From Flavobacteriales bacterium (GTDB taxonomy: Bacteria > Bacteroidota > Bacteroidia > Flavobacteriales_F > PHOS-HE28): a stretch of 38,773 nt of DNA. Positions 1,215 through 21,734 of this stretch are shown in pieces (the first letter of the stretch is position 1; each line of letters begins with the position of its first letter). A program made the position numbers and the translations under genes. The DNA lies in assembly GCA_016788485.1 (NCBI GenBank), contig JAEUSV010000071.1, positions 1 to 38,773 of the forward strand, read 5' to 3'. The notes below the pieces were generated by a model that saw only the letters and a list, made by a program, of their open reading frames with translations, had not been told where the DNA came from and did no database searches.

Positions 1215-2102
1215 ATGCAACAGGATTGGAAGGCACTGGCCGCGCTCGCCAGCGACCATTTGGGCAGTACCATGGGCAGCGTGTTGATCGGCCTTTTCAT
1301 CGGTCTGTTGGTGGGTGTGCTGCTGGCGGTGGTGTACGGCAAGCTCGGTGTCTTCCGCCGACCGGTGAACAAGTGGTACCACCGGGGTGTGAAGCTCTAC
1401 ATCCCCTTCCTGGTGGTGGTGGGCCTGCTCATTGGCGCGCAATGCGGCTTCCATCGTGCGGTGTACAAGGAGCTGAAGCTGGTGAACGATGCGGTCGTCG
1501 GGGAGCTCTACCAACGTGCGCTCGGCCCCGCCCTTGGCACCCCGGCAGCGCGACAGGCCTTTCTCACCTCGGTGCAGTCCGCGGCGAAGGAGGGACAGAC
1601 CATGGGGCAGGCCATCACGGGCCTCATCAAGCAGGCGTTGCACGAGCGGGTGGCGGAGAACGGTGGCCTCACCGACAAGGCGGCCGTGGCCGTCACCAAC
1701 TGGTTCATCGACAAGTACGAGAACGACATCGCCACGGCCATCTGCTATGGCATCTACCTGAAGGCCGGAGGCCACCTGCAGTTGCACGGCACCGGAGATC
1801 CCATGGACTACCACACCTTCAAGGAAGGGGCCGACTTCTTGCTTCAGCTCGATCTGGCGAAAGTGGAAGCGGCGGTGCAGGGGAACCTCGGCGCCCTGAC
1901 GCACGGCATCATCGACAGCTATTACAAGGGGGCGTTGAAAGGCGCGCTCCTCCTGGGTGCACTGCTCGTGCTCCTTCCTGTGTTGGAATGGGGCGTGTAC
2001 CGCTGGGTGATGCATCGCCGTGCGACCAGTGCACCCTTGCCGGCGGCCGATGTGCTTCGGTATGAGCCTCCAGCGGAAGGGCCGACGGAGGAGGGAGCCT
2101 AG
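1215..2102 (+). CDS. Membrane protein of unknown function with a helical core domain
   Basis: 295 residues, family not recognised. Two transmembrane helices lie near the N-terminus (about residues 20-42, VLIGLFIGLLVGVLLAVVYG, and about 62-80, IPFLVVVGLLIGAQCG). A third lies near the C-terminus (about 246-262, LLLGALLVLLPVLEWGVY). The roughly 160 residues between the second and third helix are amphipathic and helix-rich. The topology suggests a soluble domain held between membrane anchors. The start at 1215 rather than an in-frame upstream codon at 1188 follows from the CATCTTGT element 4 nt before it. The tail after the last helix is Pro/Glu-rich. No catalytic motif is visible. Confidence 0.65.
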   Translation: MQQDWKALAALASDHLGSTMGSVLIGLFIGLLVGVLLAVVYGKLGVFRRPVNKWYHRGVKLYIPFLVVVGLLIGAQCGFHRAVYKELKLVNDAVVGELYQRALGPALGTPAARQAFLTSVQSAAKEGQTMGQAITGLIKQALHERVAENGGLTDKAAVAVTNWFIDKYENDIATAICYGIYLKAGGHLQLHGTGDPMDYHTFKEGADFLLQLDLAKVEAAVQGNLGALTHGIIDSYYKGALKGALLLGALLVLLPVLEWGVYRWVMHRRATSAPLPAADVLRYEPPAEGPTEEGA

Positions 2103-2113
2103 GGCCCAGGTCC

Positions 2114-2121
2114 TATTTTGC
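2114..2121 (+). promoter_or_regulatory. -7-type promoter element, 4 nt before ATG
   Basis: TATTTTGC followed by GGCC and the ATG at 2126. It would drive the small gene and the coupled phosphodiesterase fusion. Confidence 0.5.
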
Positions 2122-2125
2122 GGCC

Positions 2126-2311
2126 ATGGCCCAGGAACGAAAGGTCGACAAGGCGCGCTCGGATAGGCCCGATGCCATCAGCCATGCCGATGGAACGCCG
2201 TACGAGGTCCCCGTGGAAGGCTCCTTGCCGCTGTTGGCGCTCGGCTACCGGGGGTTGATGGCGTGGCGTGCGAAGCGTGCCCGGGTACGTCGCGACAACA
2301 CCACACGATGA
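2126..2311 (+). CDS. Small basic hypothetical protein (61 aa), coupled to the downstream gene
   Basis: 61 residues, no recognised family. The N-terminal half is polar and charged (MAQERKVDKARSD). A short hydrophobic stretch (LPLLALGYRGLMAW) follows, then an Arg/Lys-rich tail. Two features argue that it is real. TATTTTGC lies 4 nt before its ATG, as at several neighbouring genes. Its TGA overlaps the next ATG in an ATGA arrangement at 2308-2311, which suggests translational coupling with the phosphodiesterase fusion. It could be a leader peptide or a small partner of that enzyme; nothing in the sequence decides between these. Confidence 0.55.
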   Translation: MAQERKVDKARSDRPDAISHADGTPYEVPVEGSLPLLALGYRGLMAWRAKRARVRRDNTTR

Positions 2312-4953
2312 GCAGCGCAGCACGACGCAAGGTCCTGCTGATCGGCTGGGACGCCGCCGACTGGAAAGCGATCGACCCGCTGATGGACCGCGGGCTCATG
2401 CCCAACCTGGAGCGCCTGGTGAACAACGGGGTGCGCGGACACATCGCCACGCTCGATCCGCCGTTGTCGCCCATGTTGTGGACCAGCATCGCCACCGGCA
2501 AGCGTCCCTACAAGCATGGCATCCTCGGCTTCACCGAGGTGGGGCCCGATGGCGAGGTGCGCCCCATCACCAACCGCGACCGCAAGGTGAAGGCCATCTG
2601 GAACATCCTCACCCAGCAGGGGCTGCGCTCGCACGTGGTGGGCTGGTGGCCGAGCCACCCGGCCGAGCCGATCAACGGCACCATGATCAGCAACTTCTAC
2701 CAGCGTGCCACCCGACCGATCAATGAGCCCTGGGTGATGCGCAAGGGGACCGTGCATCCGCCGGAGAGGAGCCTGCACTACGGGGAGCTGCGCATCCATC
2801 CCGCCGAGCTCACCGCCGCGCACATCGCCCCCTTCGTTCCGCGCTTCGCGGAAGTGGACCAGACCAAGGAGCGGTCCCTCGAGACCATCGCGAAGCTGCT
2901 GGCCGACTGCTCCACCGTGCATGCCGCCGCCACATGGATCCTGGAGCACGAGGAGTGGGACCTGATGGCCGTGTACTACGATGCCATCGATCACTTCAAG
3001 CATGGCTTCATGAAGTTCCACCCGCCGCGCAGGCCGCACATCCCCGAGCGGGAGTTCGAACTGTACAGTGGGGTGGTGGAAGCGGCCTACCGCTACCACG
3101 ACCTCATGCTCGGTCGCCTGCTCGAGCTGGCCGGGGAGGAGACCACCGTGGTGCTGCTGAGCGATCATGGCTTCCATCCGGATCACCTGCGGCCCGTCGC
3201 GCTGCCGAAGGAACCCGCTGCGCCCGCACTGGAGCACAGTCCCTTCGGCATCCTCTGTGTCAAGGGACCGGGGATCCGCAAGGACGAGCTCGTGCACGGC
3301 GCAGGCCTGCTGGACATCACGCCCACCCTGCTCACGCTCTTCGACCTGCCCGTGGGCGCCGACATGGACGGCCGACCGCTGCTCGATGTGTTCGAGGAGC
3401 CGCCCGTGCCACGCACCATACCCAGCTGGGAGAACGTGCCCGGTGAATGCGGCATGCATCCGAAGGAGGCTGGAGGAAGCGCACTGGCCGACATGGACCG
3501 CGAGTCGCTCGCACAGCTGATCGAGCTGGGCTACGTCGAGGATCCCGGTCCGGATCCGGCGCAGGCCGGACAACGCACGGTGCGCGAGAACCGCTATCAC
3601 CTGGCACGCGCGTACATCGATGGGGGGCGCATCCGCGAAGCGGCCGACCTGTTGCAACAGTTGTATGAGGAGGCACCGGAGCAGGAACGCTACGGTGCTG
3701 ACCTGGTGCGTGTGCTGTTGCTGCTTCGCCGCACGGAGGAGGCACGGCGCGTGTACGACGGTCTCGGTTCCGTGCTTGAGCGCGCGCACGAAGTGCGCAG
3801 GCAGGAGGCGTTGGCGAAGGAAGGCGGAAGCGACCCGGGCTCCCATGTTCCCAGCGGTCGCATGCGTGTACTTGGGGTGTCCGTGCTCGAGGGCGAGGGA
3901 CGATACCGCGAGGCCCTGGTGGAATTGGAGCGGCTCGCAGAACGACCCAACATGCGACCCAAGCTCGAGCTCCGCATCGGCCAGGCACTGACCAAGCTCG
4001 ACCGCTGGCGCGAGGCGCTGAAGGCGTTCGAACGTGCATTGGAGCACGACCCCCGATCGGTGGCAGCGATGGTGGGCAGGGGCACAGCGCTATTAAGGCT
4101 CGCGCGCGCGCGCGAGGCGGCCGATGTGCTGCACGTGGCCGTGGCGATGCGCTTCCATGCACCGCTTGCGCACTACCACCTGGGCGAGTGCTACCTGCGC
4201 CTGGGTGAGCATGAGCGTGCTCTCCAGGCCTATCAGGTCGCCTTGCGCCTCGCGCCGGGCCTGTTGAAGGCGCGCACCCGGATGGCACTGCTGTACGAGC
4301 AGCACCTGGGCCGGCCCGACCTTGCCGTGCAGTTGCGTGAGCAGGCGCGCGACGCTTCCGCGGACAAGGTCATCACCGTGGTGAGCGGACTGCCACGTTC
4401 GGGCACTTCCATGATGATGCAGGCGCTTGTGGCCGGCGGCTTGGAACCGTTCACCGATGGCGAGCGCACCGCGGACGAGAGCAACCCGCGCGGCTACTTC
4501 GAGCACAAGGCGGTGAAGGGGCTCGCGAGCGACAACCGCTTCATGGCCGATGCGGTGGGGCGCGTGGTGAAGGTGGTGGCACCATTGCTCCCGTTCCTCC
4601 CACCGCACTATACCTACCGCGTGGTCTTCATGGAGCGGGACATGGACGAGGTGCTGCTTTCGCAGAACCGCATGATCGAGCGCCAGCGTCGAGGCACGGA
4701 TGACAAGGCCTATCGCGTGGGACTGGAGGAGCCGTACCGCGCGCAGCTGGAGAAGGCGGTGAAGTGGGCCGGGCGATCAACGAACGTGCACCTGCTCCGC
4801 GTGCAGCACCGCGATGCCATCGCCGATCCACGCGTTGTGATGGAGCGGGTGAACGAACTGCTCGGCGGCGGCCTCGATGTGGAGGCCATGGTCGCATCGG
4901 TCGATCCTTCGCTCTATCGTAACCGGAGCACGGATGTCCCGGGCCATCCTTGA
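2308..4953 (+). CDS. Alkaline-phosphatase-superfamily phosphodiesterase fused to TPR repeats and a sulfotransferase-like domain
   Basis: 881 residues with three parts. Residues about 8-390 are a type I phosphodiesterase / nucleotide pyrophosphatase domain of the alkaline phosphatase superfamily. Asp15 (IGWDAADW) is a predicted metal ligand, Thr59 in PPLSPMLWTSIATG is the likely nucleophile, and SDHGFHPDH at about 285-293 supplies Asp and His metal ligands. Residues about 430-680 hold tetratricopeptide repeats (for example YREALVELERLAE and WREALKAFERALEHDP). From about 690 there is a P-loop-like GLPRSGTSMMM, typical of the 5'-phosphosulfate loop of sulfotransferases, followed by FMERDMDEVLLSQ. 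There is no signal peptide, so it is probably cytosolic. The substrate is unknown. The start is set by the ATGA overlap with the 61-residue gene. A role in making or remodelling a sulfated or phosphorylated glycoconjugate is a guess. Confidence 0.85.
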   Translation: MSSAARRKVLLIGWDAADWKAIDPLMDRGLMPNLERLVNNGVRGHIATLDPPLSPMLWTSIATGKRPYKHGILGFTEVGPDGEVRPITNRDRKVKAIWNILTQQGLRSHVVGWWPSHPAEPINGTMISNFYQRATRPINEPWVMRKGTVHPPERSLHYGELRIHPAELTAAHIAPFVPRFAEVDQTKERSLETIAKLLADCSTVHAAATWILEHEEWDLMAVYYDAIDHFKHGFMKFHPPRRPHIPEREFELYSGVVEAAYRYHDLMLGRLLELAGEETTVVLLSDHGFHPDHLRPVALPKEPAAPALEHSPFGILCVKGPGIRKDELVHGAGLLDITPTLLTLFDLPVGADMDGRPLLDVFEEPPVPRTIPSWENVPGECGMHPKEAGGSALADMDRESLAQLIELGYVEDPGPDPAQAGQRTVRENRYHLARAYIDGGRIREAADLLQQLYEEAPEQERYGADLVRVLLLLRRTEEARRVYDGLGSVLERAHEVRRQEALAKEGGSDPGSHVPSGRMRVLGVSVLEGEGRYREALVELERLAERPNMRPKLELRIGQALTKLDRWREALKAFERALEHDPRSVAAMVGRGTALLRLARAREAADVLHVAVAMRFHAPLAHYHLGECYLRLGEHERALQAYQVALRLAPGLLKARTRMALLYEQHLGRPDLAVQLREQARDASADKVITVVSGLPRSGTSMMMQALVAGGLEPFTDGERTADESNPRGYFEHKAVKGLASDNRFMADAVGRVVKVVAPLLPFLPPHYTYRVVFMERDMDEVLLSQNRMIERQRRGTDDKAYRVGLEEPYRAQLEKAVKWAGRSTNVHLLRVQHRDAIADPRVVMERVNELLGGGLDVEAMVASVDPSLYRNRSTDVPGHP

Positions 4954-5027: not shown

Positions 5028-5903
5028 ATGAGCCAGGACGGTACGAAGAAGCGCCACGGCGCGGACAAGTGGAAGGCCTATTCGGGCATGGCCGCCGCAT
5101 TCCTCGCGGTGGAACAGAACGCCGATGCACAGGTGTTGTACACCGATGTGGACCCGGACGAGGTGCTGTTGAGCTCCAGCTATGCCATCGACTTCGACAA
5201 CGATGGCACGGTCGACATCAATTTCACGCATGTCATCAGCGTATCGACCTCCAGCTCCTATACGTTGGAGATCCGGGGCGCGCTCGTGGCCGGCGATGTG
5301 ATCGGCGCGGTCTCGAGCAGCTACGTGTATCCGAACGCGCTGGCGGCCGGTGCGGCCATCGCACCTGGCAACCCGGAATGGAACCAGACCCCGTACGGCT
5401 TCATGGCCTTGCGCTTCGCCACAAGCTCGAGCACGGGCGTATATGGTGCGTGGCCCGGCCAGACGGCCTACCTGGGCTGCCGCTTCGTGAGCGGGATGGG
5501 CGACACGCACTATGCCTGGGTGCAATTGGCCGTTGATCCCTTGGTCGGCGATATGACCATCATGGGCTATGCGTTCGAGGCGACCCCCAACACGGCCATC
5601 GTCGCCGGTGATCAGGGCACCACCACCTCGGTGCTCGACCTTGAGGGCTCGGCTCGCATGCAGGTGTTCCCGAATCCGGTGCGCGACATCGCCGTGCTCA
5701 GGCTGGGCGATGACATCGAAGGCAATGTCTCCGTCCAGGTGCTCGATGCCATCGGTCGTGTCATGCAGCGCGCCGAGCTCAACACCATGTCGGGCTCGCG
5801 GTCCATCGAGCTCGACCTGTCGACCCTGCCCAACGGCACCTACTTCGTATCGGTGCGCAACGGCGAGCGGGTGATGCACCGCAAGGTGACCAAGGCCGAT
5901 TGA
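5028..5903 (+). CDS. Secreted protein with T9SS C-terminal sorting domain
   Basis: 291 residues. The N-terminus is polar (MSQDGTKKRHGADKWKAYS) before a weak hydrophobic stretch (GMAAAFLAVEQNADAQ), as in some Bacteroidota cargo with long n-regions. Residues about 35-205 are a beta-rich domain with an Asp-rich DFDNDGTVDINF motif; no family is recognised. Residues about 212-291 form a T9SS type A sorting domain (MQVFPNPVRD ... LDAIGRV ... LPNGTYFVSVRNG ... HRKVTK). The protein should cross the outer membrane through T9SS and be released or anchored. The start at 5028 is chosen over an in-frame codon at 4950, which would overlap the previous gene. A strong terminator follows. Confidence 0.8.
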   Translation: MSQDGTKKRHGADKWKAYSGMAAAFLAVEQNADAQVLYTDVDPDEVLLSSSYAIDFDNDGTVDINFTHVISVSTSSSYTLEIRGALVAGDVIGAVSSSYVYPNALAAGAAIAPGNPEWNQTPYGFMALRFATSSSTGVYGAWPGQTAYLGCRFVSGMGDTHYAWVQLAVDPLVGDMTIMGYAFEATPNTAIVAGDQGTTTSVLDLEGSARMQVFPNPVRDIAVLRLGDDIEGNVSVQVLDAIGRVMQRAELNTMSGSRSIELDLSTLPNGTYFVSVRNGERVMHRKVTKAD

Positions 5904-5960: not shown

Positions 5961-6152
5961 GTTGGCATCGCACGCATGTGCGTCATGCGTGCGCATCACA
6001 GGCCGCAACCATGACAACGTGATGTGCGTGCTGCATGCAACGTGCGTTGATGCATGCGTGCGATGCATCGCATCATGTGCACATGCGCATCGATCACATC
6101 GATGACGTCATCATCGATCCTTCAGCGAGATGATCGATCGTTGATCGCGATC
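5961..6152. repeat. Palindrome-dense intergenic block
   Basis: No gene is seen between 5904 and 6245. After the terminator comes a low-GC block (28/60 G+C at 6121-6180, counted by hand). It is packed with perfect palindromes: TGCATGCA (6032), CGATGCATCG (6061), CATGTGCACATG (6074), ATGCGCAT (6083), GATGACGTCATC (6101) and GATCGCGATC (6143). It also holds perfect hairpin arms at 5969-5977/5985-5993 and 6049-6055/6063-6069. GATC recurs between 6092 and 6205. The function is unknown; it could be a regulatory region, a protein-binding array or part of an RNA leader. Confidence 0.7.
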
Positions 6153-6220
6153 CACGATTTCAACATCGGATGGTTCAAAGAAGAATGCAACCATGGGGAT
6201 CGATCTTCCGTAGAACATGA

Positions 6221-6228
6221 TACGTTTG
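6221..6228 (+). promoter_or_regulatory. -7 promoter element of the histone H1-like gene
   Basis: TACGTTTG is an exact match to the Bacteroidota TAnnTTTG consensus, 17 nt before the ATG at 6246. Confidence 0.6.
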
Positions 6229-6245
6229 TTCAAACCTCCAGAACA

Positions 6246-6377
6246 ATGGCAAAGAAAGCTGCGAAGAAAGCCGCGAAGAAGGCCGCTCCGAAGAAGAAGG
6301 CCACCGCGAAGAAGGCTGCCAAGAAGGCCGCCCCGAAGAAGAAGGCCACCGCGAAGAAGGCCGCGAAGAAGAAGTAA
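6246..6377 (+). CDS. Histone H1-like Lys/Ala-rich DNA-binding protein
   Basis: 43 residues made almost entirely of Lys, Ala, Pro and Thr, in repeats of the type KKAAPKKKATA. It resembles the C-terminal tail of eukaryotic histone H1 and bacterial H1-like proteins (Hc1/AlgP type), which bind DNA through charge and may compact the nucleoid. At DNA level a segment of about 45 nt is nearly duplicated in tandem, so length may vary between strains. The start is the only in-frame ATG near the lysine-rich stretch; the frame is open to 6054, but the upstream part lacks the composition. An exact TAnnTTTG element lies 17 nt upstream and a strong terminator follows, so it is monocistronic. It is very short for the family and lacks a globular domain. 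Confidence 0.8.
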   Translation: MAKKAAKKAAKKAAPKKKATAKKAAKKAAPKKKATAKKAAKKK

Positions 6378-6534: not shown

Positions 6535-8526
6535 TCACTCCTTCATGAACTTCACCTGCTGCATGCCATCCGCGCTCATCACCTCCAGCACATAGGCGCC
6601 CGGCTTCAGCCCCGCGATGTCCAGCGTGCCGTTGGTGATGCGGTCCACCAGCACCACCTGGCCGGCGATGTCGATCACCCGCGCCGTGCGGCCGTTCACC
6701 TCGCTGGTGCCGTTCAGGCGAAGCACTTCGGTGGCCGGATTGGGGAACACGCCCAATGAGAGGCCGGGCACCGAGGCGATCCCGGTGGCGAGGTCCTCGG
6801 TGACGGTGATGGTGCTGTTGATGGGGGGCGCCACCACCACGCTGGTGAGGCCCGAGGGCCAGAGCACGATGAGGCTGTCGATGCCCGTGTCGCTGCCGAG
6901 GCCGAAGTGCGTGTTCAGGCTGCTCATGTAGCGGAAGCCGTCGCCGCTGCGGACCTCGCGGATCTGAGCGCCCAACGCGCTCACGATGCGCACACGCGCG
7001 CCGATGCCGTTCGCGTTGCTCGCCGTGCCGATGGTGCGCACCTTCAACCAGTTGTTGGCGTTGCCGTTGTTCATCCAGACAGTGCCGCCGTTCTGCACGT
7101 CCAGGAAGCCGTCGTTGTTCAGGTCGCCGATGGGGCCGTTGCCGGGCTGCGCGGAGATCTGCGTGAAGGTCATGTTGCCGTTGTTGCGCATCATGCCGCC
7201 GCCCCCCAGCACATCGAGGTAACCGTCGTTGTCGAAGTCGTGGGTCACGAACTCGATGCTCGTCCCGTTGAACAGGTCGTACCCTGAGCCCGGCGTCACG
7301 TTCGTGAAGGTGGTGCCGTCATTGCGCATCAGTTTGTGGCCGCCGCCGGTGAAGGAGCTGGCGCCGATGAGCACGTCCAGGTCCCCGTCGTTGTCGAAGT
7401 CGCCCCAGGCCGACGACCAGCTCTGGTGGTAGTCCGTGAGGTTGAGCGAGGCGGCCACCTCGGTGTAGTTGCCATTGCCGTCGTTCTGGTGCATCTGGTC
7501 GATGCTGGCCGGCGATCCCGCACCCCGGCACTTGGCGATGAACATGTCGATGTCGCGGTCGTTGTCGTAGTCGATCCAGATGCTGCCGTAGTTGCCGCCG
7601 TCCGGGGTGTCACCCAGTCCCCCCTGGTAATAGGTGAAGTTGTTGCTGCCGTCGTTCAGGTAGTACACGTTGGGTTCCACATCGTGGCACGAGAACACGT
7701 CCAGGTGGCCATCGTTGTTGATGTCCACCGTGTTGGAACGCTGGCAGAAGATGTACTCGGGGAACGAGGTCTCGGTGTAGGCCGTACCACTGGCGTTGGC
7801 CATCATCAGGGTGATCCCGCCCCCGGCATACACCAGGTCGTTGTACCCGTTCTTGTCCAGGTCGCCGGCGCACATGCTCCAGTAAGGGGTCTGGTCGGCG
7901 GGCGTGGTGGCGTAGTTCACCGTGTTGAACCCGCCGCCCGTCAGCTGGTAGTGCACCCGGATGTTGGTGGCCGTCACGTCCACGGCATCATCAAGCCCAT
8001 CGGCGTCCATGTCGACCACACAATAGGCCATGCCGGTGGTGGGCACCGCGACCGCGGTGAAGTTGCCCGTGGGGGGCGGTGGTGCCGCCGGGGCCTCGCT
8101 CACCGTGAAGGTGAAACCGAGCGAGCTCCAGTTGTTGTCCCAGGCGATCAGGTAGCTCACGCCCATCAGTACGTTGAACGTGCACACGCTGGTGTACCCC
8201 GTACCGCTGTCGTCATCACCGGCATGGCAGGTCAAGGTCGCGCACCCGCCCGTGTACACGTGCACCCTGGTGTCGACCCCGTTGTTGCCGGGCAGGTCCG
8301 AGCTGATGCGGATGGTGGTGTCGTGCGTGGCGGTGAACACATACCATTCACCTGCGGTGGGCGCACCTCCGTTCTGGGCGCAGATGGGGGCGGGTGGCTG
8401 GGTGCCGTTCACGGCGGTCACCACATAGCTGCCGAGCGTGACGGGCACGGCGGTGGCGCAGTTGTCCTGCGCGTTGGCCGGCACCGCGAGCAGGGCGCAG
8501 AGTCCGATGGTGGTCAGGTTCTTCAT
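6535..8526 (-). CDS. FG-GAP/VCBS repeat protein with UnbV (ASPIC) domain and T9SS tail
   Basis: 663 residues, secreted. Residues 1-19 are a signal peptide (cut after PANA). Residues about 20-145 form a beta-sandwich with paired cysteines. Residues about 165-480 carry FG-GAP/VCBS blades with Ca-binding loops such as DMDADGLDD, DINNDGHLD, DFDNDGDLD and DFDNDGYLD, which usually fold as a beta-propeller. Residues about 495-570 match the ASPIC/UnbV domain (NNWLKVRTIG ... GDGFRYMSSL ... FGLG ... LIVLWPSG). Residues about 590-663 are a T9SS sorting domain (GVFPNPATE ... LKPGAYVLEVMS). It lies 24 nt downstream of the diheme cytochrome gene, so the two are probably cotranscribed. The ligand is unknown; such propellers often mediate binding. 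Confidence 0.85.
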   Translation of the reverse strand: MKNLTTIGLCALLAVPANAQDNCATAVPVTLGSYVVTAVNGTQPPAPICAQNGGAPTAGEWYVFTATHDTTIRISSDLPGNNGVDTRVHVYTGGCATLTCHAGDDDSGTGYTSVCTFNVLMGVSYLIAWDNNWSSLGFTFTVSEAPAAPPPPTGNFTAVAVPTTGMAYCVVDMDADGLDDAVDVTATNIRVHYQLTGGGFNTVNYATTPADQTPYWSMCAGDLDKNGYNDLVYAGGGITLMMANASGTAYTETSFPEYIFCQRSNTVDINNDGHLDVFSCHDVEPNVYYLNDGSNNFTYYQGGLGDTPDGGNYGSIWIDYDNDRDIDMFIAKCRGAGSPASIDQMHQNDGNGNYTEVAASLNLTDYHQSWSSAWGDFDNDGDLDVLIGASSFTGGGHKLMRNDGTTFTNVTPGSGYDLFNGTSIEFVTHDFDNDGYLDVLGGGGMMRNNGNMTFTQISAQPGNGPIGDLNNDGFLDVQNGGTVWMNNGNANNWLKVRTIGTASNANGIGARVRIVSALGAQIREVRSGDGFRYMSSLNTHFGLGSDTGIDSLIVLWPSGLTSVVVAPPINSTITVTEDLATGIASVPGLSLGVFPNPATEVLRLNGTSEVNGRTARVIDIAGQVVLVDRITNGTLDIAGLKPGAYVLEVMSADGMQQVKFMKE

Positions 8527-9639: not shown

Positions 9640-9768
9640 GGGAGGTTCACCGGGTTGGAGCACGAACAAGGTAGCCAACGGGTCCTCGTCCCAGGGTTCA
9701 GCTCGTGGCCATCCTTGGGATCGCGCCCGACGGATATGACGTACGCGGGATCCGGTCCGCTGCCCGGC

Positions 9769-11451
9769 TCATGCCGTGAAATAGGGCCGGAGCTCCTCGG
9801 CGAAGTACTGGAGCGCGTTGCGGACGCCCAAGGGAAGGCCGCCGCCCAAGGCGCACAGCGAACCGATCTCCATGGTCTCGATCAGGTCGTTGAACAGCGC
9901 ACGGTCGATGGGCCGGCCCTGCACAGCGCCCTTGATCAGCTCCTTGCCGCGGGTGGAGCCGATGCGGCAGGGGAAGCACTTCCCGCAGCTCTCCATGGCG
10001 GTGAACTCGAAGAGGTGTTCCAGGTACTTCACCATCGGGAAGTCGACCGGGATGCTGAGCACGCTGGCATGCCCGAGCAGGAAGCCCGCCTTCTGGAAGC
10101 TCTCGAAGTCGATGCCCAGCTCGTTCACCTTGTGCAGCGGTACGATGCCACCGAGCGGACCGCCGATGTGCAGCGCTTTCGTGGGACGCTTGAAGCCCTG
10201 CCCGAGCTCGTCGATCACACGGGCCAGCGGTGTGCCGCATTCCACCTCGTACAGCCCGGGGCGGTTGAAGGCGCTGTCCAGGCACACGAGCTTGCTGCCG
10301 TTGCTCTTCTCCGAGCCCAGCTTCGCGAAGGCCGCGCCGCCATGCTGCACCACCCAGGGCACGCAGGCCAGCGTCTCCACGTTGTTCACCACCGTGGGCC
10401 GGTTGAACAGGCCTTGTTGCGCGGGGTAGGGCGGGCGTGTGCGCACCTCGCCGCGCTTGCCCTCGATGCTGTTGAGCAGGGCCGTCTCCTCGCCGCACAC
10501 ATAGGCGCCCGCGGCCTTGATCACCTTGAAGCGCCAGTTGAAGCCGCTGCCCTTGATGTCATCGCCGATCCAGCCATGGGCCTCCAGTTCGGCCACCGCG
10601 CGCTTGGTGGCCTCCACGGCCTCGGGGTATTCGGCCCGGATGTACAGCACCCCCGTATCGGCGCCCACGCAATAGCCCGCGATCATCATGCCCAGCAGCA
10701 CGCGGTGCGGCCGCTGCTCGAGCAGGTAGCGGTCACTGTAGGCCGCGGGGTCGCCCTCGTCCGCGTTGCACACGATGTACTTGCGCGGCCGACCGTTGCC
10801 CGTGGTGTCCTCGGCATTGCGGCAGGCCTCGAGCTTGAAGCCCATGGGGAAGCCCGCACCGCCGCGGCCACGGATGGTGGCCACCTTGATCTCGTTGAGG
10901 ACGTCGGCCGCATCGCTGCGCAGCACCTGCTCCCACACGGCGTAGAACGTGTCCAGCGCGGGCATCGGGGCGGTGAGGATCGGGGCCTCCATCGTGGTGC
11001 CCACGTGGTAGGGGTCGGCCCCGGCGTCCGCCGCGGCACCATTCACCACCGCATCGATCCTGTCCACCGCCGTGCCGCTGTAGTTGCGGCCGCCCACGTG
11101 GAACGCGCTGTTCTCGTGGCAGCGTCCGAGGCAGCACATGTGCCCGATCTCCTCCGGCTTGAAATGCCGGGCGAGCGCGTGGTGCACCTTGTCCTGCGTG
11201 CCGGCCACCAGACAGGCGCTGCCGTTGCACACATAGGCCTTCACGCCCTTGTTGGCCTCCTTCAGCAGGTCGTAGAAACTGCTGGTGCCGTAGGTGATGG
11301 CCTCGCCCACGAGAAAGTCGTCGGCGATGCGCGTGAGCGCTTCGGTGTCCGGGGTGCCGCTGTTCGCTGCCGCCTGCTGCAGGCGTTCCCAGAGCGGATC
11401 GTTGAGCTCCTTGCCGTCGCGGCCGGAAAGGGAGGAGATGTTCTTGGACAT
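9769..11451 (-). CDS. NAD(H)-binding beta subunit of formate dehydrogenase (NuoE-NuoF-type fusion)
   Basis: 560 residues. Residues about 60-120 form a thioredoxin-like [2Fe-2S] domain with the NuoE-type ligands C-x4-C (VCNGSAC) and C-x3-C (CLGRC). From about 190 the NuoF-like part follows: RGRGGAGFPMGFKLE (FMN/NADH loop), CNADEGDPAAYSDR (NADH site) and the [4Fe-4S] motif ESCGKCFPCR with the later Cys in GSLCALGG. All expected ligands are present. Such subunits pass electrons from a catalytic alpha subunit to NAD+. The likely partner is the alpha/NuoG-type gene at 1-560, 9.2 kb away on the same strand. The gene stands alone, with TACTTTGG 7 nt before ATG. A hydrogenase (HydB/HndC-type) subunit is the main alternative, but no hydrogenase is visible. 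Confidence 0.85.
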   Translation of the reverse strand: MSKNISSLSGRDGKELNDPLWERLQQAAANSGTPDTEALTRIADDFLVGEAITYGTSSFYDLLKEANKGVKAYVCNGSACLVAGTQDKVHHALARHFKPEEIGHMCCLGRCHENSAFHVGGRNYSGTAVDRIDAVVNGAAADAGADPYHVGTTMEAPILTAPMPALDTFYAVWEQVLRSDAADVLNEIKVATIRGRGGAGFPMGFKLEACRNAEDTTGNGRPRKYIVCNADEGDPAAYSDRYLLEQRPHRVLLGMMIAGYCVGADTGVLYIRAEYPEAVEATKRAVAELEAHGWIGDDIKGSGFNWRFKVIKAAGAYVCGEETALLNSIEGKRGEVRTRPPYPAQQGLFNRPTVVNNVETLACVPWVVQHGGAAFAKLGSEKSNGSKLVCLDSAFNRPGLYEVECGTPLARVIDELGQGFKRPTKALHIGGPLGGIVPLHKVNELGIDFESFQKAGFLLGHASVLSIPVDFPMVKYLEHLFEFTAMESCGKCFPCRIGSTRGKELIKGAVQGRPIDRALFNDLIETMEIGSLCALGGGLPLGVRNALQYFAEELRPYFTA

Positions 11452-11458
11452 GGCCGCA

Positions 11459-11466
11459 CCAAAGTA
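11459..11466 (-). promoter_or_regulatory. -7-type promoter element of the beta subunit gene
   Basis: TACTTTGG on the minus strand, 7 nt before the ATG at 11451. Confidence 0.5.
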
Positions 11467-11490
11467 CGCAGCCGCACCATGCCGCAGGGT

Positions 11491-11661
11491 TCACTCCCCG
11501 GCGTCGGGATGCTTGGGCTTGCGCTTGTATCGCTTCGCGCTCTTCACCACCTTCTCTCGGAAGCGTCCGTCCAGCGCACCCGCCGCCTTCTGCGCGGCAC
11601 GCTTGGCCTCCCGCTCCAACTGGTCGGTGGTCACGGTCTTCTTCCGGCGCTTGGCGGGCAT
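11491..11661 (-). CDS. Small Lys/Arg-rich hypothetical protein (56 aa)
   Basis: 56 residues, rich in Lys, Arg and Ala (MPAKRRKK ... REAKRAAQKAAG ... VKSAKRYKRKPKHP). Family not recognised; the charge suggests nucleic-acid binding. The start at 11661 is chosen because GATCTTCG lies 4 nt before it, the spacing seen at other genes. In-frame upstream ATGs (near 11720) would overlap the promoter region of the divergent gene at 11743. It lies 39 nt upstream of the beta subunit gene, which has its own element. Confidence 0.55.
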   Translation of the reverse strand: MPAKRRKKTVTTDQLEREAKRAAQKAAGALDGRFREKVVKSAKRYKRKPKHPDAGE

Positions 11662-11665
11662 GCCA

Positions 11666-11673
11666 CGAAGATC
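11666..11673 (-). promoter_or_regulatory. -7-type promoter element, 4 nt before ATG
   Basis: GATCTTCG followed by TGGC and the ATG at 11661, minus strand. Confidence 0.4.
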
Positions 11674-11742
11674 GGCGATCGCCGGATCAAACCATTCTCC
11701 CGGCATGTCGTCCAACCGCATCACCACCGAACACCCCTGCCC

Positions 11743-13095
11743 ATGACCGCACGCTCCTTCGCCTCCGCCCTCGCCTTGCTGCTCGTCCGCTCCTCCTTCG
11801 CCCAGGGGCCCGAGATCACCAGCTGGATCCTGAACCAGGGAGAGACGGGCAGCTACTACGTCCAGGGCAACAGCACGCCCGTCGTCACCTCCACGCCGGC
11901 CAACGTGCAGCTGGTGCAGTATTCCACCGACAACGTGTACATCAGTGCCACGGGGATCCCCGCGTATCCGACCGCGCCCTTCCTCGATGGCAACCCCTCC
12001 CTCGCCGGGAGCAACGCCTACATCTTCCGTGTGCCGCGCGTGCCTCAGCAACAGACCGGCACGCTCACGGATGTGCCGCTCGGTCACATCGGTGTGCTCA
12101 AGAACGGTGTGCCCATCTTCAATGCGGAGGATGCCATGAGCTACAACGGGCAGGGCATCTGGCTGCGCAACGCCGTGTACTGGGAGAACGACGGCATGGA
12201 TTGCAGCAAGGGGCACCCCGCACCGAACATGGGCGGCGGCGGCCTGCAGTCGGGCCGTTACCACCACCACCAGAATCCGGCCCCGTTCAGCACGGCGAGC
12301 GTGCTGCTCTCGAGCATCTGCACCCAGTATCCGTCCACCGGGCTCTACACGCCGGATCCCGCACAGCATTCACCGCTGCTGGGCTACGCGTTCGATGGCT
12401 TCCCCATCTACGGTTGCTTCGGCCACAGCGACCCCCTCGATGCCGCGAGCCCGATCGCACGGATCGAGAGCAGCTGGCAGCCCCGCAACATCACCGTGCG
12501 CCAGACGCTCGCCGATGGTACGACGCTACCGGCCAACCAGTACGGCCCGGCCGTGAGCCCGCAGTATCCCATCGGCTGCTACATCCAGGACTTCGAGTTC
12601 GTGTCCGGCTCGGGCGACCTCGATGCGCACAACGGCCGCTTCTGTGTGACCCCGGAGTACCCGGGCGGCACCTATGCCTACTTCGCCACGGTCGATGCCG
12701 ACCTCAACTCGGCCTATCCCTACTTCATCGGCCCCACCTACTACGGCGTGGTGGCCACGGACAACTTCGGCGTACCGGGTCCGGGCAATCCGCCCACGAA
12801 CGTGTCGGTGCCGGGCAACGTCACCACCTGGACCGGCACCACCGGTATCGCTGAAGCAGCAGCAGCGCAGCGCATCATCGCCAGCCCGAACCCCACCGAT
12901 GGCCTGGTGCGGCTCGTGCTTCCGGAAGGCACGCGTACCTATGCCGTGTGCGACATTGCGGGGCGCGAAGTGCGACGTGGCAATGCGACGGGCGGGGTGC
13001 GTGTCGAGGACCTTTCGGACCTCGCGCCGGGCACCTGGCTCATTCGTGCGGAGGGATCGGGCGGCAGCTTCACCACGCGCGTGGTGCGGCATTGA
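11743..13095 (+). CDS. YHYH-domain protein with T9SS sorting tail
   Basis: 450 residues, secreted. A signal peptide spans residues 1-20 (ALLLVRSSFAQ). The central region matches the YHYH domain family: DVPLGHIGVLKNGVPIFNAEDA, DGMDCSKGHPAP, GRYHHHQNP at about 172-180 and LLGYAFDGFPIYG. The signature here reads YHHH, one residue different from the family name. A strand-rich stretch with GTYAYFATVD follows. Residues about 380-450 form a T9SS sorting domain (IASPNPTDGLVRLVL ... CDIAGREV ... LAPGTWLIRAEG). The biochemical role of the family is not established; the His cluster suggests metal binding. The same frame is open far upstream because it runs antisense to the beta subunit gene; the signal peptide fixes the start. 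Confidence 0.85.
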   Translation: MTARSFASALALLLVRSSFAQGPEITSWILNQGETGSYYVQGNSTPVVTSTPANVQLVQYSTDNVYISATGIPAYPTAPFLDGNPSLAGSNAYIFRVPRVPQQQTGTLTDVPLGHIGVLKNGVPIFNAEDAMSYNGQGIWLRNAVYWENDGMDCSKGHPAPNMGGGGLQSGRYHHHQNPAPFSTASVLLSSICTQYPSTGLYTPDPAQHSPLLGYAFDGFPIYGCFGHSDPLDAASPIARIESSWQPRNITVRQTLADGTTLPANQYGPAVSPQYPIGCYIQDFEFVSGSGDLDAHNGRFCVTPEYPGGTYAYFATVDADLNSAYPYFIGPTYYGVVATDNFGVPGPGNPPTNVSVPGNVTTWTGTTGIAEAAAAQRIIASPNPTDGLVRLVLPEGTRTYAVCDIAGREVRRGNATGGVRVEDLSDLAPGTWLIRAEGSGGSFTTRVVRH

Positions 13096-20057: not shown

Positions 20058-21734
20058 ATGCGTACCCTATCCTTCTTGCTCTTGATCATAGCCACGGCTT
20101 CGTGTGCCGCTCAACCTTGGCTGACGACAATCCAGGTCGGTGGTCCCGGCGATGATGATATGGTTCTCGTGGATGTGGTCGATGCAGATGGCAGCTTCTA
20201 CGTGCATGCGAACTATAGCAGGCAGGTGGGCACATTACCACCACCGACCTATTGCTTGGTGGGTACTGACACCTTGTTCGGAACCGAAAATGCTTTCATC
20301 GCGAAGTATACCTCCGCAGGTGCCCTTGTCTGGCTGCGGAACTTTGCGAGCAGCGGTGGTTTGGTCTATGTCATGGATATGACGTACGACACCCTCTCCA
20401 ACGCGCTCTATGTCGTTGGTGGATATACTGGGAATTGCCTATTGGACACGATCCAGCTAACCAGCGGAGGTGCGTCTTTCATCAGTAAGTGGACAAGTGA
20501 CGGGCACTGCCTGTGGGCAAGGGATGTATCCTCGTATTGGTGCGAGCTGACATCCTGTACCATTGGGCCGAATGGCTCCCTACTGGTAGGCGGCCACATA
20601 GGCAACACCTTTGCACAGGTGGAAGGTCATTTCTGGCCACAGGGGTCCCTGATGTTGGCCTACACCCCTCAAGGTGACACCTTGTGGACACGCTACTTGA
20701 ACGCCCACGATGGATTCAATGAGGGAGCTTACCCGATCCGCTTGGACCATGGCCCGGATGGGATCACGGCCTTGCTGACCACTTATCTCCGCGAAGACAA
20801 CGACACCCTGGTGATCGATGGCCTTGTACAAACAGGCTACCATGGCTTGGCCTACGGCATTCTTCGGGCAGATCCGGTTGATGGGCACGTGTTGTGGGTG
20901 CGGACGGATGGGTCGCCAACCTCAGGAGCAAGTGCCTATGCACCTGATCAAATGCTTGTGCTGAACAATGGCGATATTTTGCTCGCCCGCGCTTTTGGCG
21001 ATACAGCGATCATCAACGGTGACACTTTGCTTTCAACTGCAGAGTCAACCTCCGCCTTGATACGATATAGCAGCAGTGGAAGCTTCTTGGGAGTTCAGCG
21101 ATTCGACGCGAGCGAGAGAGCACTGTTCCTCGCCATTTCCGAAGCACCAGCTGGCCAATTCCTAATCACAGGAAAGATCAATGGTGACTGTCTCTGGGAT
21201 GGCCATTCCTTGAGCACGGGCGGTATAGATCATGTATTGCTGTGCCGCCTGGATACGGACGGCACTTGCTTGGCGCTATCTTCATTTAGCTCAGGAATCG
21301 GGGCATCGATACGGTGTTTGCCCAGTGGGTTCGCTTTAACAGGCGTTTTCCCGAATAGCAACACCGCCACCGGCCCACCCTTGAACATGGGCCCGATCTC
21401 ATACACGACCAGGGGCTGGACTGACTCCTTCATTGCGGTGCATGATGGCTCGGTAGGTGTCTCTTCGCTTCACGCGCCGATGGAGAGCGGTCTCCAGATC
21501 TACGCCAACCCCAACAATGGCAGCTTCCGCCTAGTGTTGCCAGAGGCCATCGCCAACGCGGCACAATTGCAGCTGCGGATCTACGACAGCACCGGTCAGT
21601 TGGTGAAGGAGCAGACCCTGGGTCGCGAGGAGCAGCGGCCCCGTATGGATGTCTTCGATGTGGGTGCCGGGCTGTATGTGGTCACGGTGTCCGATGGGCA
21701 GCGCACGTACAGCGGCACCATGGTGGTGGAATGA
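20058..21734 (+). CDS. Secreted T9SS protein with lower-GC passenger
   Basis: 558 residues. The signal peptide is MRTLSFLLLIIATASCAAQ; the Cys at 16 may be a lipobox, but AQ after it fits signal peptidase I. The body has propeller-like strands (VDVVDADGSFYVHANY, NGSLLVGGHIG, LNNGDILLARAFG, QFLITGKINGDCLW) similar in style to the cargo at 14440-17743. The last about 75 residues are a sorting domain (IYANPNNGSFRLVL ... IYDSTGQLVKEQ ... VGAGLYVVTVSDGQ). Base use is unlike the neighbours: 29/60 G+C at 20401-20460, against 38/60 at 21601-21660 in the sorting domain and 42/60 at 14041-14100, all counted by hand. The passenger may have been acquired or diverged separately. The 280 nt upstream are also AT-richer and contain no gene. 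Confidence 0.8.
   Translation: MRTLSFLLLIIATASCAAQPWLTTIQVGGPGDDDMVLVDVVDADGSFYVHANYSRQVGTLPPPTYCLVGTDTLFGTENAFIAKYTSAGALVWLRNFASSGGLVYVMDMTYDTLSNALYVVGGYTGNCLLDTIQLTSGGASFISKWTSDGHCLWARDVSSYWCELTSCTIGPNGSLLVGGHIGNTFAQVEGHFWPQGSLMLAYTPQGDTLWTRYLNAHDGFNEGAYPIRLDHGPDGITALLTTYLREDNDTLVIDGLVQTGYHGLAYGILRADPVDGHVLWVRTDGSPTSGASAYAPDQMLVLNNGDILLARAFGDTAIINGDTLLSTAESTSALIRYSSSGSFLGVQRFDASERALFLAISEAPAGQFLITGKINGDCLWDGHSLSTGGIDHVLLCRLDTDGTCLALSSFSSGIGASIRCLPSGFALTGVFPNSNTATGPPLNMGPISYTTRGWTDSFIAVHDGSVGVSSLHAPMESGLQIYANPNNGSFRLVLPEAIANAAQLQLRIYDSTGQLVKEQTLGREEQRPRMDVFDVGAGLYVVTVSDGQRTYSGTMVVE

Follow-up and report, generated by a model that had tools for sequence, protein, structure and literature searches.

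A conserved phosphodiesterase-TPR-sulfotransferase fusion goes with a 61-residue partner and with exported proteins bearing a tyrosine-containing leader

What would one polypeptide do with a phosphatase-type domain at one end and a sulfotransferase-type domain at the other? The question is raised by a gene at positions 2308-4953 of a Flavobacteriales contig (JAEUSV010000071.1), whose 38,773 nucleotides were analysed as a whole and are called the window here. All features described below lie on the forward (+) strand. The gene starts with ATG and encodes 881 residues. A sequence-only reading had proposed three domains in this one protein, and both Pfam HMMs and an AlphaFold2 model built with 48 sequences (pLDDT 90.7, pTM 0.80) bear this out. 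An alkaline phosphatase (AP)-superfamily domain of the NPP/PafA-like type occupies residues 1-375 (2308-3432), Phosphodiest (PF01663) matching residues 9-291 at E 2.2e-32 (113.4 bits against a curated cut-off of 23). It is followed by a helical TPR superhelix (3484-4362, about residues 393-685; TPR families cover about residues 430-680) and by a PAPS-type sulfotransferase domain (4363-4935, residues 686-876), to which Sulfotransfer_3 (PF13469) is matched marginally at residues 771-853 (27.8 bits against a cut-off of 27). In comparisons with PDB structures, the N-terminal domain aligned with PafA and NPP chains (Z about 26-27 over 271-329 residues, rmsd 2.7-3.5) and the middle part resembled TPR superhelices such as that of O-GlcNAc transferase; the VIA-align structural rows span mainly the AP and TPR parts and hardly cover the sulfotransferase fold. 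A profile of the sulfotransferase domain ranked PAPS sulfotransferases first in the PDB (SULT1A-type chains at E 2.1e-6; TPST1 at E 0.007, over profile positions 5-25 only), which speaks against membership in another P-loop family.

The AP metal ligands and nucleophile and the GLPRSGTS loop that had first drawn attention to the protein proved to be conserved throughout the family. The seven residues of the NPP/PafA-type site (D15, S54, D228, H232, D286, H287 and H310) are kept in 82 of 83 members, their roles as nucleophile (S54) and two-metal ligands being presumed from NPP positions. In the C-terminal domain, which contains the VSGLPRSGTSMMMQ phosphosulfate loop and a MERD...LSQ 3'-phosphate motif, R697, T700, S701, E732, K755, R777 and S785 are kept in 83/83 members. 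The GLPRSGTS 5'-phosphosulfate loop and the 3'-phosphate residues R777 and S785, which we take to contact PAPS, are likewise kept in all 83. Formylglycine sulfatases have a C/S-x-P-x-R motif at the nucleophile; the nucleophile sequence here is S54-P-M-L-W, and this identity was ruled out for the N-terminal domain. Since the Ser nucleophile lies in SPMLW without a formylglycine motif, the domain looks like a phosphomono- or phosphodiesterase rather than a remover of sulfate. One polypeptide may both remove and add groups, as the sequence-only reading proposed. APS kinase was found in all four fusion-bearing congeners, the window's genome included, and these should therefore be supplied with PAPS; it was missing from 6 of 25 genomes, four of which have the fusion, possibly through incompleteness. 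A scan for sigma-70-like promoters found no site, and the host likely uses another promoter type.

A contig scan confirmed 501 stretches encoding the fusion, and the loci studied are the best 80 of these. All 80 of the 501 align to the fusion nearly end to end (42-62% identity); matches of nearly full length at 80 distant loci mean that the gene is not a chance reading frame. By their tree labels, these best 80 of 501 belong mostly to Bacteroidota and otherwise to Thiotrichaceae and other Pseudomonadota, Acidobacteriota, Planctomycetota, Nitrospirota and Myxococcota. The aligned loci establish the fusion as a conserved three-domain architecture present in several phyla, with both catalytic centres intact. 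Loci L062 and L102 have a stop between the AP-TPR part and the sulfotransferase part, and the family alignment was made without them and without the duplicates L001 and L003. In one tandem paralogue (L092:1371), none of the seven AP residues remains, while those of the sulfotransferase are kept. The fusion is rare (2 of 296 evenly drawn Bacteroidota genomes) and patchy within the window's genus (4/23 genomes, the window's own included), and no plasmid-borne copy turned up, P0001 having no match in the plasmid collection at E <= 1e-30. In the fusion tree, two rows from Acidobacteriota (L047 and L057) fall within Saprospiraceae; L038, labelled Hyphomicrobiales, also groups there and is probably misbinned.

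The gene just upstream encodes a 61-residue protein (2126-2311) with the signature (E/D)GSLxLLALGxxGLxAWRxKR, and its stop codon overlaps the fusion start (ATGA). The coupling of the two genes, also pointed out at the outset, holds well beyond the window: a small gene with the motif GSLGLLALGxxGLxAWRxKR adjoins the fusion in 65 of the 80 loci (best 80 of 501), being a separate ORF in 53/59 Bacteroidota loci and 12/21 others. The model used for these counts was trained on Bacteroidota only and found nothing under E 1 among reversed ORFs; two more of its matches, at L100 and L102, are tails of larger proteins. The small-gene stop lies no more than 36 nt from the conserved GWDAADWK codons of the fusion in 36 of 51 measured loci. 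Six of the 15 loci without an adjoining small gene (best 80 of 501) are from Bacteroidota, and four of these six genomes have it elsewhere (E 5.9e-19 to 7.6e-14). A survey of 39 relatives found both genes kept together, the small gene being present in exactly the four genomes that have the fusion (Fisher 1.2e-5, a value that treats genomes as independent, which relatives are not). Three of the 296 Bacteroidota genomes have the small gene, namely the two with the fusion and G280. By its position and distribution, the 61-residue gene is shown to be a true partner of the fusion.

Clustering of the ORFs flanking 83 loci yielded one recurrent group besides the fusion, present in 62/83 and mostly just downstream; the next groups, left unannotated, comprise at most 12 loci each. 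The window's member of this group (5028-5903, 291 residues; the searches and the model took 5025 as first base, which adds one residue) is a predicted exported protein, hereafter the cargo, made up of a leader, a beta-sandwich and a T9SS C-terminal sorting domain. Por_Secre_tail matches it with 45.3 bits against a cut-off of 27 (E 1.1e-11), identifying it as T9SS cargo, and matches 38 of 39 cargo members at E <= 0.1. No PDB entry matched the mature fold at E <= 0.001; partial matches were best to T9SS tails, DUF3244 and beta-rich proteins. The leader (5028-5129) ends in ...ADKWKAYSGMAAAFLAVEQNADA|Q, with the cleavage site predicted by eye, and contains a conserved Tyr codon at 5079-5081. Its consensus is LxxKLxxYSxLAxA...AxAQ, and a helix is predicted, with low confidence, at residues 11-27 of the cargo model.

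Homologues of the cargo in five fusion-lacking genomes have ordinary hydrophobic signal peptides with no Tyr before the likely cleavage site. The maximum 10-residue Kyte-Doolittle mean averages 1.84 in 39 leaders, as opposed to 2.57-3.38 in the signal peptides of these five relatives (p 3e-4). The same mature domain is therefore found with an ordinary signal peptide where the fusion is absent and with the special leader where it is present. A Tyr near the mature N-terminus (VYTDxxPD, with acidic flanks) was considered as a sulfation site and dropped, because it is kept in the homologues from fusion-lacking genomes and so does not track the fusion.

The leader itself does. A 36-position leader model matched all four fusion congeners at E 1.2e-15 (window) to 1.2e-9, and none of six fusion-lacking relatives gave a match better than 0.029; among the 296 Bacteroidota genomes it found the leader only in the window's own. 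Thirty-five fusion genomes from several phyla were hand-chosen from the 80 loci (best 80 of 501), and 21 of them have a leader match at E <= 0.01. Restricting the count to the 23 fusion genomes outside the training set leaves 9 with a match at E <= 0.01 and 8 at E <= 0.001, the latter compared with 0/294 fusion-lacking Bacteroidota (p 2e-10); in Bacteroidota alone, 5 of 7 untrained fusion genomes have the leader (p 1e-9); both p values again treat genomes as independent. Many of the leader genes lie on contigs other than that of the fusion, up to six per genome, and encode proteins of various sizes (about 270-1175 residues). Alignment A6 of the leader was gathered with a pattern that demands Tyr, so the invariance of Tyr within it is circular. 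When the Tyr column was masked, however, Tyr was found in 50/50 independent matches covering the column, whereas no other position of the leader proper is invariant (53 matches lie outside the training set, three of which stop short of the column, and a few represent one gene counted in two loci). These surveys show that predicted exported proteins with a weakly hydrophobic leader and an invariant Tyr go with the fusion.

In some Acidobacteriota and Pseudomonadota, the motif of the small gene forms the C-terminal, PEP-CTERM-like tail of leader-bearing cargo. The genome of L102 (Acidobacteriota) encodes two proteins, L196 (302 aa) and L202 (300 aa), each a single chain that runs from the leader through a similar mature domain to a small-gene-like tail, such a tail reading, for example, ATLGLLANGACGLKAWRRREEMN. 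The leader is joined to a scored PEP-CTERM tail in cargo of L073 and L098, and tails of this type also occur in a neighbour at L100 and in a fragment of the L099 genome (the PEP-CTERM regex flagged L056 and L064 as well, both discounted by eye). A T9SS sorting domain must itself be C-terminal, and where the cargo ends in one, the small-protein motif sits in a separate gene. The motif is in cis on non-T9SS cargo and in trans with T9SS cargo, an arrangement which suggests that the small protein may be a detached cargo tail that has a separate role, for instance in bringing the enzyme to the membrane; most rows with the tail in cis fall in a single clade. Among the best 80 of 501 loci, PEP-CTERM was found at 5/15 without the small gene compared with 0/65 with it; outside Bacteroidota the loci without it are mostly one clade of nine rows, so this association is not independent evidence. 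The window's 61-residue protein has no match to PF07589 or TIGR02595, reads PVEGS rather than PEP and does not qualify as a PEP-CTERM protein; its relatives at L083 and L059 reach 15.1 and 17.2 bits against a cut-off of 20.7. Exosortase (PF09721) had no match at E <= 1e-5 in G000 (the window's genome, 84% complete), G004, G018 or G019.

The sequence-only reading had also suggested that the two catalytic ends may act on a shared glycan or lipid. This is not supported as the leading option: what tracks the fusion is genes for leader-bearing exported proteins and not glycan or lipid genes. In a fuller form of this reading, the fusion would place or remove sulfate and phosphate esters on a surface polymer, which the cargo would serve as matrix or anchor protein, the leader marking only a shared export route. 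Glycans are frequent substrates of PAPS sulfotransferases and AP-superfamily enzymes, and PEP-CTERM proteins are tied to exopolysaccharide; yet it is the cargo that recurs in 62/83 flanks, with only unannotated groups of at most 12 loci behind it, and the fusion-linked change sits in the leader, not in the mature domain. We consider this reading unlikely. The fusion, small gene and cargo might instead be mere neighbours inherited as an islet, with the fusion serving nucleotide or PAPS/PAP metabolism unrelated to export. Such inheritance would account for the patchiness within the genus (4/23 genomes) and for the nesting of the acidobacterial L047 and L057 among Saprospiraceae. It seems quite unlikely, however, as what tracks the fusion is the leader motif, not merely the gene, and the linkage is not only physical, because leader genes lie on other contigs (up to six per genome) and the small gene is sometimes in trans.

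The interpretation that we tentatively favour, granting it a little less than an even chance, is that the fusion works in the cytosol, docks leader-tagged precursors through its TPR part and modifies them ahead of export. No signal peptide or membrane helix was evident on inspection of the fusion sequence, for which reason it should meet its precursors in the cytosol, where PAPS is. In a membrane-inserted precursor, the leader N-terminus and the tail C-terminus both face the cytosol, and it is on this ground that docking by the TPR superhelix and the small protein is proposed. The helical leader, with L, L and Tyr on one face, would dock in the superhelix while the precursor is still cytosolic or is inserted with both ends facing the cytosol, and the small protein, or the cargo's own tail, would keep the enzyme at the membrane. 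The C-terminal domain would then use PAPS to sulfate the precursor, with the leader Tyr as the acceptor to consider first, and the N-terminal domain would hydrolyse a phosphoester in the same cycle, either of a phosphorylated acceptor or of PAP/PAPS. The precursor would finally be cut after AxA, exported by Sec and handed to the T9SS or PEP-CTERM route.

The modification would most likely be sulfation, a chemistry that we infer; the paralogue L092:1371, which lost the AP residues and kept the sulfotransferase, counts in favour of the modification reading. Sulfation of the leader Tyr itself appears rather unlikely. Tyrosine-sulfation sites usually have an acidic context, and that of the leader Tyr is basic, not acidic; given this context and the loss of the residue with the cleaved leader, the Tyr may serve in docking and not as acceptor. 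Several observations count against a leader-guided modification: the 14 of 35 fusion genomes without a leader match at E <= 0.01, the genome G101, which has fusion and small gene with no leader match, and the planctomycete locus L078, where four PEP-CTERM neighbours lack the leader. So does G280, where the small gene lies beside an aspartokinase-like ORF (named by eye) and the fusion is missing. The marginal Pfam score of the sulfotransferase domain and the fusion genomes in which APS kinase was missing count on the same side. The notion that TPR and small protein simply pilot leader-bearing precursors to the translocon, the enzyme domains binding PAPS/PAP as a sensor that gates release and leaving the cargo unmodified, would suit the TPR superhelix and the help that weakly hydrophobic leaders may need in export, but is improbable given the strict conservation of both catalytic centres in 82/83 members, which suggests turnover. 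Within the modification reading, a bolder version would make the system a reversible covalent lock on the signal peptide: the sulfotransferase would sulfate the leader Tyr and the phosphatase-like end reset the acceptor, gating exit, while the small protein would be a sorting tail freed from the cargo when T9SS took the C-terminus. This we regard as a long shot.

The fusion architecture, its leader and the pairing were found neither described nor assigned a role in the open literature, searched at title and abstract level, so the fusion does not appear to be a known arrangement. The nearest system in working is RaxST/RaxX, likened by description only, and the nearest in sorting logic is PEP-CTERM/exosortase. 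RaxST has a single domain, and its substrate is a short signalling peptide exported with RaxA/RaxB. Relative to it, the fusion adds AP and TPR domains, and its cargo consists of large surface proteins with T9SS or PEP-CTERM tails. Common to the two systems, RaxST/RaxX being a Xanthomonas tyrosine sulfotransferase and its 60-residue precursor, is a bacterial sulfotransferase with a genetically linked exported precursor polypeptide (PMC6637879). The PEP-CTERM/exosortase system (PF07589, TIGR02595, PF09721) has a tail motif resembling the small protein, and some non-Bacteroidota cargo bears a true PEP-CTERM tail; in the window, by contrast, the motif is a separate protein without signal peptide or PEP triplet, the cargo uses T9SS and exosortase is unmatched. 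A weak likeness to PFE-CTERM (NF050011), a family not named in the literature searched at title and abstract level, concerns the hydrophobic core of the small protein (19/51 members at E <= 0.1, best 0.00021); the best score among members with bits given, 21.3, is under the curated 24, and the window protein has no match. NPP and PafA share with the AP domain the fold and all seven active-site residues. The NPP nucleophile is Thr, as in PafA (T79), whereas the fusion has Ser, is apparently cytosolic and is joined to TPR and sulfotransferase parts. Cytosolic SULT1 enzymes and TPST1 have PAPS-binding motifs in common with the C-terminal domain, which differs in being a module of about 190 residues at the end of a larger enzyme, with no close solved relative.

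Signal peptides are usually defined by how charged and hydrophobic they are rather than by fixed residues, and we know of no case of signal-peptide regulation by covalent modification. Here a bifunctional enzyme is accompanied in several phyla by a leader class with a constant Tyr, and a sorting-tail motif occurs either fused to cargo or as a gene of its own of some 60 codons. The fusion, its tiny partner and the Tyr-leader proteins together point to a mechanism, as yet undescribed, by which exported proteins are marked or sorted, and this would give a candidate function to a family that the present searches named only by its domains.

Within the contig, the two ORFs that precede the 61-residue small gene, 588-1172 (+; 194 aa) and 1188-2102 (+; 304 aa), returned nothing above cut-off in a Pfam search; the longer of the two resembles a membrane protein. 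Downstream of the fusion, a lysine/alanine-rich ORF (AKKAAKKAAPKKKATAKK...) lies at 6054-6377 (+). It has a low-complexity, histone H1-like tail and ends approximately 150 nt from a converging ORF, 6535-8526 (-). Domain content identifies the latter as an FG-GAP/ASPIC-UnbV protein; together with a Por_Secre_tail protein (20058-21734, +) it is T9SS-sorted, as is the leader-bearing cargo (5028-5903). The same type of evidence places a YHYH-domain protein at 9655-13095 (+) and, at the right end of the contig (36722-38773, +), a PKD domain-containing M43 peptidase.

In other genomes, leader-bearing cargo at loci L188 (G349:C276; three leader genes) and L087 carries a C-terminal hydrophobic segment (e.g., SDLIGVAISGPVFAYLAHLLYLLETNK), with neither a T9SS nor a PEP-CTERM tail. 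Four PEP-CTERM proteins in a row (L078:1-4521), immediately upstream of a planctomycete fusion, all lack the Tyr leader as judged by eye.

Bacteroidota genome G280, in which the fusion is undetectable, contains a small gene with the complete signature (L180, G280:C17, about 5193-5318), which adjoins an aspartokinase-like ORF. At locus L092, a tandem paralogue of the fusion (1371-3920) lies directly 3′ of the small gene. All seven phosphatase active-site residues are replaced in this protein and the sulfotransferase residues are retained. By its sequence, the paralogue is a predicted natural separation-of-function variant of the fusion.
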